Below, piece by piece: positions 23,337-25,690 of a stretch of 64,000 bases of DNA. The stretch comes from Synechococcus sp. 8F6 (GTDB lineage Bacteria > Cyanobacteriota > Cyanobacteriia > PCC-6307 > Cyanobiaceae): positions 62,001-126,000 of the forward strand of contig NZ_NQKZ01000003.1 in the NCBI RefSeq assembly GCF_002252665.1. The letters are read 5' to 3'. The position numbers and the translations under genes are program-made. Position 1 is the stretch's first letter, and each line of letters starts with the position of its first letter. The notes below the pieces were generated by a model, which worked only from the letters and a program-made list of their open reading frames with translations, did not search any database and had not been told where the DNA came from.

Positions 23337-24644
23337 TCAACGGGCCTGCACCACCGGGATGGCGGCCAGCCGCGTGGTGGCGGCACCGGAGAGCCGCGAG
23401 CGTCGCATCCGCCAGGGCGTCTGCAGGCCTGCGGCGGCCCATTGCACGGTGCCGCTGCCGTAGTGGCGGTTGAGGCGATCGATGGTGGCCATCAGGGCCG
23501 AGCGGCGGTGCTGCTGCTCCAGGGGCAGTGGCACCAGCAGGTGGTGCTGCAGGATCTCCTCGCTCTGCAAGTTCTGCAGCAGAACGCCAGCCTTCTGTAG
23601 GGGTTTGTGGGGCTTGAACAGCCGCTCCACCAGGGGCAGGGCCGCCTGCAGCAGTACGGCCGTGTCGTTGCTGGCCAGCGGCAGGGTCACCGTGGCGCTG
23701 TTGCTGTAGAAGCTGGTGCCATTGAAGGGGCTGCTGCGCACAAATACCGTGATGGCCCCGGCCCGTTGCCGTTGGCGCCGCACCTTCTCCGCCGCCCGGC
23801 TCAGGTAGGTGGCGATCGCCTCCTGCAGCTCGGCCTGGGTGGTGATGGGCTGGCTGAAGCTGCGGCTGACGCAGGTTTCCCGCTTGGTGGCCGGCAGGGT
23901 GTCCAGTGGCAGGCAGGCGTGGCCGCGCAGCTCCTGCTGCAGGCGCACGCCCACCACACCGCAGCGGCGCCGCAGTTCGCCGCTGGGCATGTCCCGCAGG
24001 GCCCGGGCATGGCTGATGCCGCGCAGGCGGCACCAGCGGGAGAGCTGGCGGCCGATGCCCCACACGTCTTCGATCGCGACCGCTTCGAGCTGGGGATCGG
24101 GGTCACCGATGCCGCCGAAGTCCCACACACCGTCGCTTCCTGGTGCCGTTTTAGCGAGGCGGTTGGCGAGCTTGGCCAGCACCTTGCTGGGGGCGATCCC
24201 CACCGCCACCGGCAGGCCCAGCTCGCAGAGCACGTGGTGGCGCAGTCGCCGGCCCCAGTCGTGCAGGTCACCGTGGCCGGCGGGCCGGTGCAGCTGGCCG
24301 AAGGCCTCATCGATCGAATAGATCTCCAGCTGCTCGACCCACGGCTCCACGGTGGTCATCAGCCGCTGGCTCATGTCGGCGTAGAGGGCGTAGTTGGAGC
24401 TACGCACCACCACACCCTGGCGTTCCAGCTCGCGCCGCACCTGGAAGTAGGGCTGGCCCATGCGGATGCCGAGGGCTCGCGCTTCGGCACTGCGCGACAC
24501 GATGCAGCCGTCGTTGTTGGACAGCACCACCAGCGGTCGGCCCAGCAGTGCGGGATCCATCACCGCTTCGCAGGAGGCGTAGAAGTTGTTGCCGTCGATC
24601 AGCACGATCGCTGGCCGGCCGGTGGCCTGAGAGCGGCAGGTCAT
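23337..24644 (-). CDS. umuC: Error-prone DNA polymerase V catalytic subunit
   Basis: The 435-residue Y-family polymerase carries out translesion synthesis during the SOS response. The palm catalytic blocks are intact: VLIDGNNFYASCE near the start and LEIYSIDEAFGQL for the second acidic pair. The little-finger and UmuC C-terminal (DUF4113-like) regions follow. It lies 6 nt downstream of umuD on the same strand, under the LexA-like box at 25058. Confidence 0.95.
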   Translation of the reverse strand: MTCRSQATGRPAIVLIDGNNFYASCEAVMDPALLGRPLVVLSNNDGCIVSRSAEARALGIRMGQPYFQVRRELERQGVVVRSSNYALYADMSQRLMTTVEPWVEQLEIYSIDEAFGQLHRPAGHGDLHDWGRRLRHHVLCELGLPVAVGIAPSKVLAKLANRLAKTAPGSDGVWDFGGIGDPDPQLEAVAIEDVWGIGRQLSRWCRLRGISHARALRDMPSGELRRRCGVVGVRLQQELRGHACLPLDTLPATKRETCVSRSFSQPITTQAELQEAIATYLSRAAEKVRRQRQRAGAITVFVRSSPFNGTSFYSNSATVTLPLASNDTAVLLQAALPLVERLFKPHKPLQKAGVLLQNLQSEEILQHHLLVPLPLEQQHRRSALMATIDRLNRHYGSGTVQWAAAGLQTPWRMRRSRLSGAATTRLAAIPVVQAR

Positions 24645-24650
24645 GGCGCT

Positions 24651-25031
24651 TCAGCGATGGCCCGTGCCGGGCTCGAGGGTACGGATGACGTGCACGGCCA
24701 CCCCCCAGAGGTGGGGCTCAGCGCCGGGATCCAGCTCCAGCGGGGGATAGGCGGGATGGGCCGCCTCCAGCCGCAGCCGGCCCCGGTGGCAGACCAGCCG
24801 TTTGAGGGTGAAACCACCAGCGAGCCAGGCCACCACGATCTGGCCAGGCCGGGGCTCCAGGCCTCGATCCACGATCAGCAGGTCGCCGTGGGCGATCCCG
24901 GCGCCCTGCATCGACTCGCCACTCACCCGCAGCAACACCGTGCTGGCACGGCAGCGGATCAGCTCGTCTTCAAGACTGATGGCGGTGAGGTTGGTGGGGG
25001 TGAGGCTGGTGGGGGGAGCGGGGGGTGCCAA
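24651..25031 (-). CDS. umuD: UmuD-like S24 peptidase, short N-terminus
   Basis: The 126-residue product has the S24 self-cleaving protease core: catalytic Ser40 in VSGESMQGAGIAHGDLLIVD and Lys in GGFTLKRL. It pairs with UmuC to form polymerase V. The only start codon after the in-frame TAA (25058-25056) is the TTG at 25031. The untranslated codons just upstream spell D-W-V-C-G-A-P, resembling the Cys-Gly cleavage site of E. coli UmuD. The protein as encoded would therefore lack the cleavage site and resemble pre-processed UmuD'. A noncanonical start or sequencing error is the alternative. Confidence 0.88.
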   Translation of the reverse strand: MAPPAPPTSLTPTNLTAISLEDELIRCRASTVLLRVSGESMQGAGIAHGDLLIVDRGLEPRPGQIVVAWLAGGFTLKRLVCHRGRLRLEAAHPAYPPLELDPGAEPHLWGVAVHVIRTLEPGTGHR

Positions 25032-25057
25032 CGGCGCGCCGCAAACCCAATCACGTT

Positions 25058-25071
25058 AGTTCAGGTGTACT
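25058..25071. promoter_or_regulatory. LexA (SOS)-like box upstream of umuDC
   Basis: AGTTCAGGTGTACT matches the cyanobacterial LexA palindrome (AGTAC-N4-GTACT type) with one mismatch in one half-site. It lies 27 bp upstream of the umuD TTG, where a repressor would cover the promoter. Damage induction of the operon is inferred. Confidence 0.65.
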
Positions 25072-25085
25072 GGCATGGCGCCGGC

Positions 25086-25316
25086 CTAGTCCTGCGGGCC
25101 GGCATCCTTGGAGCCGGTGAAGCGCCGATAGAGCCACAGGCCGCCGCCGCCCCACAGCAGGGTCCACAGCACGAAAGTGGTGAGCGTGCCGAGCTGGCCC
25201 GTCTCGAGGGAATAGACGCCGGCCTGGATCAGCCCGGCATCGATCAGGGAACCGCCAATGCCCCAGCCCAGCACCCAGCTGAGCAAAAAGCCGATCGCCT
25301 GCAGATTGCCGGTCAT
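25086..25316 (-). CDS. Two-helix membrane protein
   Basis: The 76-residue product has two hydrophobic segments (IGFLLSWVLGWGIGGSLI and LTTFVLWTLLWGGGGLWLY) and a polar C-terminus. Similar small cyanobacterial membrane proteins are unassigned. Its start overlaps the stop of the upstream gene at 25313 by 4 nt (ATGA), indicating translational coupling. The stop is 15 bp from the umuDC LexA-like box. Confidence 0.6.
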   Translation of the reverse strand: MTGNLQAIGFLLSWVLGWGIGGSLIDAGLIQAGVYSLETGQLGTLTTFVLWTLLWGGGGLWLYRRFTGSKDAGPQD

Positions 25317-25690
25317 GCCGGCGAGGTTAGGCGCTGGCTGAAGCGGCGGACGAACTGCGCCAGGGGCATCGGCCCGCAGCGGCGCTGCCAGCCCACTCCT
25401 TCCGGGTAGCGGCGCCAGCAGGACAGCCGATTGCCGCGGTTGTCGAGACAGATCAGGTAGCGGTAGGTGGCAGTGGCGGCGGTGGACGGGGCCTCCGCGC
25501 TGGGCAGGGGCCGCAGCGGCTCAAACACGGCAGCAAGCTCCCGCCAGTTGCGGGGCGGCAGCCCGCTGGCCCGCAGCGGCGCGCCGAGCAGGCTGGCGAG
25601 GTGCTGGGGGAAGCCGGCATCGGGAAGCCACCAGTGGCCCTGGCGTGACCGGTGGGACTCGAGCAGGGAGATCACGGCGCCGCAGGCCAT
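25313..25690 (-). CDS. Hypothetical protein, 125 aa
   Basis: A soluble 125-residue protein with a proline-rich middle, then YRYLICLDNRGNRLSCWRRYPEGVGW and a basic end. No signal peptide or membrane segment is visible, and I do not recognise a domain. The 4-nt overlap with the downstream two-helix membrane protein supports expression as a pair. Confidence 0.55.
   Translation of the reverse strand: MACGAVISLLESHRSRQGHWWLPDAGFPQHLASLLGAPLRASGLPPRNWRELAAVFEPLRPLPSAEAPSTAATATYRYLICLDNRGNRLSCWRRYPEGVGWQRRCGPMPLAQFVRRFSQRLTSPA

Follow-up and report, generated by a model that had tools for sequence, protein, structure and literature searches.

The window analysed here, a stretch of 64,000 nt from Synechococcus sp. 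8F6, carries on its minus strand a short umuD, referred to below as umuD', followed after 7 nt by umuC (Table 1). The umuD' product is recognised by the Pfam profile PF00717 Peptidase_S24 (68.6 bits against a cut-off of 23.3), and a structure search returned E. coli UmuD' as its nearest solved structures, the best Foldseek match of the AlphaFold2 model (mean pLDDT 81) being UmuD' 1ay9 (E 6.4e-08). Ser40 and Lys77, the counterparts of S60 and K97 in an alignment with E. coli UmuD, form the predicted protease pair, which upholds the claim of an earlier, sequence-only reading of this DNA that both catalytic residues are kept. The resemblance to processed UmuD' that it proposed is borne out as well: besides the fold match, the window gene and its close relatives lack an arm with a cleavable C/A-G bond, having neither an AGFPSP segment nor an upstream start. 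With the NCBIfam models PRK10276 (UmuD) and NF051876 (HumD family) the product scores 98.4 (cut-off 110) and 39.1 bits (cut-off 120), in both cases under the cut-off, as is the best NCBIfam match of umuC (PRK03609, 364 bits, cut-off 431). The features by which a umuD is recognised, an operon with umuC and a LexA box, are both found at the window gene, as judged from the DNA sequence only. The gene is thus a umuD placed before umuC and driven by a predicted SOS box, the product of which would begin after the N-terminal arm and hence be born UmuD'-like. Most likely, umuD' and umuC are transcribed together from the LexA box of umuD' itself.

Table 1. Coordinates (window numbering) of the features at the umuD'-umuC locus
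Feature	Position	Strand	Basis
Predicted LexA box AGTACACCTGAACT	25058..25071	-	pattern search; consensus from PMC3091678
Leader of 26 nt from LexA box to start codon, probably untranslated	25032..25057	-	spacing as in full-length relatives
umuD' (arm-less UmuD, 126 aa, TTG start)	24651..25031	-	ORF, Pfam S24, short frame in ten relatives, UmuD' fold
Predicted catalytic Ser40 codon (= E. coli S60)	24912..24914	-	alignment; 29/29 in clade
Predicted catalytic Lys77 codon (= E. coli K97)	24801..24803	-	alignment; 29/29 in clade
umuD' stop codon TGA	24653-24651	-	
umuC, pol V catalytic subunit	23337..24644	-	Pfam IMS, IMS_C, DUF4113

The predicted LexA box AGTACACCTGAACT departs from the cyanobacterial consensus AGTACWNWTGTACT (PMC3091678) at two positions, with C in place of W and A in place of T, and AGTACNNNTGWACT has a single match in the window versus none in 100 shuffles, with 3 matching places across the 2.5-Mb genome. 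Its position directly upstream of the gene agrees with the LexA control assumed in the sequence-only reading. The last T of the box is also the first base of an in-frame TAA (25058-25056), and between this stop and the TTG at 25031 the umuD' frame contains no ATG, GTG or TTG, so that the TTG is indeed the only usable start and the TAA blocks any further upstream. No Shine-Dalgarno sequence was seen before the TTG, which lies 26 nt from the end of the box. Among full-length relatives with a box (n = 58), the first usable ATG or GTG most commonly lies 25-28 nt from the box end (26/58) and falls within 20-34 nt in 40/58. Eleven short forms in the genus resemble that of the window, which is included in this number; six have a TTG at exactly 26 nt, and the other five (L006, L007, L009, L010, L011) have at the same distance a CTG, which is their presumed and possibly conserved start. 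In site-less forms of another genus, the box is mostly followed by an ATG or GTG at a distance of 25-31 nt. We infer that TTG or CTG is used as the start codon.

The leader contains in-frame C-G-A-P codons (25043-25032), which had been taken for a relic of the UmuD cleavage site. Because the TTG sits at the start spacing typical of full-length relatives, and of the ATG or GTG in site-less forms, these codons are best read as leader sequence. The residues at this position are not conserved, relatives having CGLP, CGPP, CGVP or RGAR (R-G in five of them), the family site A-GFPSP is wholly missing, and substitutions in the leader show no third-codon-position excess, albeit on small counts, whereas the umuD' core retains the coding pattern of third-position changes. 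We therefore reject the relic. Just upstream of the LexA box lies a small ORF (25086-25316, minus strand) that has no Pfam match and carries a C-terminal LYRRFTG motif, preceded by another ORF lacking a Pfam match (25313-25690, minus strand). The motif also precedes umuD at locus L024 of a relative, so this gene order predates the split between the window forms and L024.

Relatives were taken from whole genomes and from public contigs, the latter belonging to strains and MAGs of Cyanobium and Synechococcus. The short frame, the start position, the box and the stop at or just after it are retained in ten other genomes at species level, none of which has an in-frame upstream start. Since stop and frame are conserved in relatives, the TAA is real and the sequencing error that had been considered possible is rejected. 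An eleventh relative (G013, locus L024) is likewise short and site-less but differs in sequence, and four further genomes of the genus encode a full-length UmuD with AGFPSPADDY. Across 29 distinct sequences of site-less UmuD, in which 22 of 105 columns are invariant, S60 and K97 are present in all 29, and the proteins are therefore predicted to be active; the pair has been retained although these proteins have no cleavage site in cis.

The genome of the window encodes a second UmuD outside the window (G000:C52:97201-97518; about nt 97201-97551), which we refer to as D. Its N-terminal arm is present and its A-GFPSPADDY intact, but it carries S60A and K97R; it has its own LexA-like box GGTTCAGCTGTACT, is not adjacent to umuC, and passes PRK10276 (118.6 against a cut-off of 110). 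In 27 D sequences obtained by protein searches, and thus not selected for the site, S60A and K97R are both found in 27/27, as are G25, F26, P27, S28, A30, D32 and Y33. Invariant positions make up 7/10 of the site versus 27/101 of the core (Fisher p 0.009), and as these residues are invariant despite 20 different DNA spellings of the GFPSPA codons, selection acts at the protein level. The cleavage site is thus selected in a protein predicted to be unable to cut itself. A third S24 paralog (L153, G000:C32, 233-637, minus strand; counterparts L155-L161 elsewhere in the genus) is about the size of UmuD', has Gly or Arg at S60, Arg at K97 and no cleavage site, in most cases has its own LexA-like box, and groups with D on the tree.

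The distribution of these forms was followed in 400 Cyanobiaceae genomes, which were scanned for three patterns (site + Ala; site + Ser; Ser...Lys), the errors of the pattern scan being amended through protein searches and reading of the loci. Three of the 66 genomes with site + Ala (G109, G133, G152) were left out of the D count, as they carry the umuC-operon umuD of genus g60, a different gene; in G110 and G187, a D missed by the pattern was recovered by protein search (GQAM, GDAL), and in G057 and G176 the pattern had missed a normal site, both carrying variant sites. Three candidates for a site-less UmuD were discarded: the match in G066 is not UmuD-like, G383 has no UmuD match, and the protein match in G396 is LexA. 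Normal UmuD, with site and Ser in cis, is present in about 273/400 genomes and D in 65/400; the two never occur together, against about 44 genomes expected under independent sorting. A live site-less UmuD was found in 56 genomes (g1 12, g6 34, g46 3, g62 6, g74 1), of which 53 were read directly, two were assigned by pattern alone (G153, G169) and one is truncated where its contig ends (G362). D is present in 56/56 of them, a count of genomes that are not independent, since the site-less forms share one origin, and a live site-less UmuD without D was never found among the 400. The association also holds within genus g46, where all three D genomes have the site-less form and none of the genomes with the normal form has D. 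The two genes are therefore inherited together, both behind LexA-type boxes, and each has retained what the other has lost, the catalytic pair in one and the cleavage site in the other.

Two further genera show a different arrangement. In g40 and g60 (L112-L120), umuD begins 6 nt after the LexA box, and most of its products have only about 2-5 arm residues ahead of the A-GFPSP bond, L117 having more. The operon umuD of g60 (L118-L120) carries S60A and retains Lys97, and those genomes showed no other UmuD.

In a core-domain tree, which has few columns and many open forks, the site-less Cyanobiaceae forms make up one clade (SH-aLRT 96), and D and the third dead paralog another (SH-aLRT 99). Repeated independent losses of the site are thus unsupported, the site-less forms being a single clade. 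Since each half forms one clade, the split appears to be old; most likely it happened once, both halves having been retained across five genera.

Eight genomes, six in g6 and two in g74, have D and umuC, and no live UmuD was found in them (G318, G329, G334, G369, G381, G384, G088, G138). In five of the eight, umuC directly follows a LexA box; at loci L224, L225, L226, L227 and L231, no umuD stands between the two, umuD' having been lost and only the dead armed paralog being left, elsewhere in the genome. The residue before the cut (position P1) is Ala in 46/46 D proteins whose genome encodes the short protease, likewise in 69/70 normal UmuDs, compared with 3/8 in the D-only genomes, where it is Ser or Thr in 5/8 (Fisher p 2e-5). 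By parsimony, UmuD' was lost four times, and the cut position changed in most of these lineages, three of the four, and nowhere else; the comparison comprises only these four loss events (too few for a sign test), draft genomes and two long-branch lineages. The GFPSPA core of D persists in the D-only genomes. As D lasts there without a live UmuD, it must be useful uncut in these genomes, and part of the conservation of D and its GFPSPA core must accordingly have another cause; the site may also serve binding.

UmuD normally cuts itself, which switches on an error-prone DNA polymerase, a textbook switch; intermolecular cleavage was reportedly described by McDonald et al. in 1998. To our knowledge, work on cutting between UmuD subunits has relied solely on mutants. 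We lean, if only somewhat, towards the view that the umuD' product and D are the protease and substrate halves of an anciently split UmuD, with cleavage in trans. Evenly balanced, in our judgement, is the further proposal that self-cleavage has been replaced by an obligatory cut between co-induced paralogs, whereby activation of pol V would need the heterodimer and stay under RecA control. RecA and LexA are both present, and we propose the following hypothetical sequence of events, in which (i) umuD' and D would be induced together in the SOS response; (ii) UmuD'/D heterodimers would form and hold pol V back; (iii) on RecA filaments, the UmuD' protomer would cut D in trans; (iv) cut D would give rise to UmuD'-like dimers, by which UmuC would be activated. 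On this view, which is the simplest, two tasks of UmuD would have been shared out, the protease and the position next to umuC falling to the short protein and the arm and the bond to D; by analogy with E. coli, pol V would be held by the heterodimer and released by trans cleavage of D. Counted against this proposal are the location of D away from umuC, the eight D-only genomes and the single common origin.

Compared with known systems, the window protein shares with E. coli UmuD/UmuD', the pol V manager (PDB 1ay9, 1umu, 8gmt), the S24 fold and the Ser60-Lys97 pair as well as the umuC operon and the LexA box, and its start-to-Ser distance is 39 residues versus 35 in UmuD'. Unlike E. coli UmuD, it has neither the arm nor the bond in cis, both of which are on a second, catalytically dead protein. 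Another close counterpart is an engineered one: E. coli UmuD 18, which is arm-truncated and hardly self-cleaving, forms heterodimers with UmuD S60A and cuts it in trans in the presence of RecA/ssDNA (PMC5342242), an active subunit without the arm thus being combined with a dead armed subunit, as here. Those are laboratory mutants for which the trans cut was seen, whereas the present pair is natural and known from sequence alone; it is conserved across five genera, and D, unlike UmuD S60A, has lost Lys97 too. In the open-access papers searched, we found neither a description of a split UmuD nor the trans-cleavage reading.

The foremost alternative, which we consider rather doubtful, is that the short protein activates UmuC once made, with no RecA-dependent cleavage, and that D is a separate regulator that is never cut, perhaps acting as a brake or by binding the clamp or a polymerase, Ser and Lys being kept in UmuD' for the fold or by inertia. 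The missing cleavage site in cis would suit such constitutive activity, as would the persistence of D in eight genomes without a live UmuD. A precedent is offered by phage P1 HumD, which we take to be a natural UmuD' homologue that is made at UmuD' size without self-cleavage, as is the window protein, and works uncleaved; NCBIfam has a HumD family. HumD is phage-borne and, unlike the window protein, has no cognate umuC, and we know of no dead armed partner for it. Constitutive activity is harder to reconcile with Ser and Lys being kept in 29/29 short forms, as the fold tolerates their loss, D having lost both, and with the selection on the cleavage site of D, the retention of Ala before the cut only alongside the short protease (save in one D-only clade), and the finding that the short form never occurs without D. 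The suggestion of the sequence-only reading that pol V activation depends on transcription alone is thus unsupported, a D with S60A/K97R and an intact site being co-inherited in 56/56 genomes; trans cleavage, with the partner bearing the RecA checkpoint, accounts for the pattern of D no less well than constitutive activity does. That reading is therefore partly confirmed in what it observed and partly supported in how it was interpreted, constitutive activation perhaps being wrong.

We regard as improbable a regulatory heterodimer that is never cut, in which D would be a permanent dominant-negative partner inactivating UmuD' or marking it for ClpXP; UmuD/UmuD' heterodimers do form in E. coli, where ClpXP degrades the UmuD' within them (PMC4552617), D retains the arm and D-only genomes exist, but both the catalytic pair kept in the short protein and the tracking of the latter by the Ala before the cut are left unexplained. 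That the true protein begins further upstream and includes a cleavage site in its N-terminal part, hidden by a sequencing error, a mis-set start or decay into a pseudogene, is hardly credible: TTG and CTG are weak starts and the TTG has no Shine-Dalgarno sequence, but ten relatives share the frame, the stop and the start spacing, there is no space for an arm behind a LexA box that lies immediately before the gene, the ATG or GTG of many site-less relatives in other genera is found 25-31 nt from their box, and the core's coding pattern speaks against a pseudogene.

If the split of UmuD into protease and substrate is true, the two genes would constitute a natural pair with cut site and active site on separate genes, which would make inter-subunit cutting directly testable, and they would illustrate how two paralogs can share out the functions of an autoprotease. 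The control of pol V in picocyanobacteria would also have to be read differently: in this host group of small freshwater cyanobacteria, any cut would act between two proteins, and an annotated short UmuD does not necessarily imply unregulated mutagenesis.
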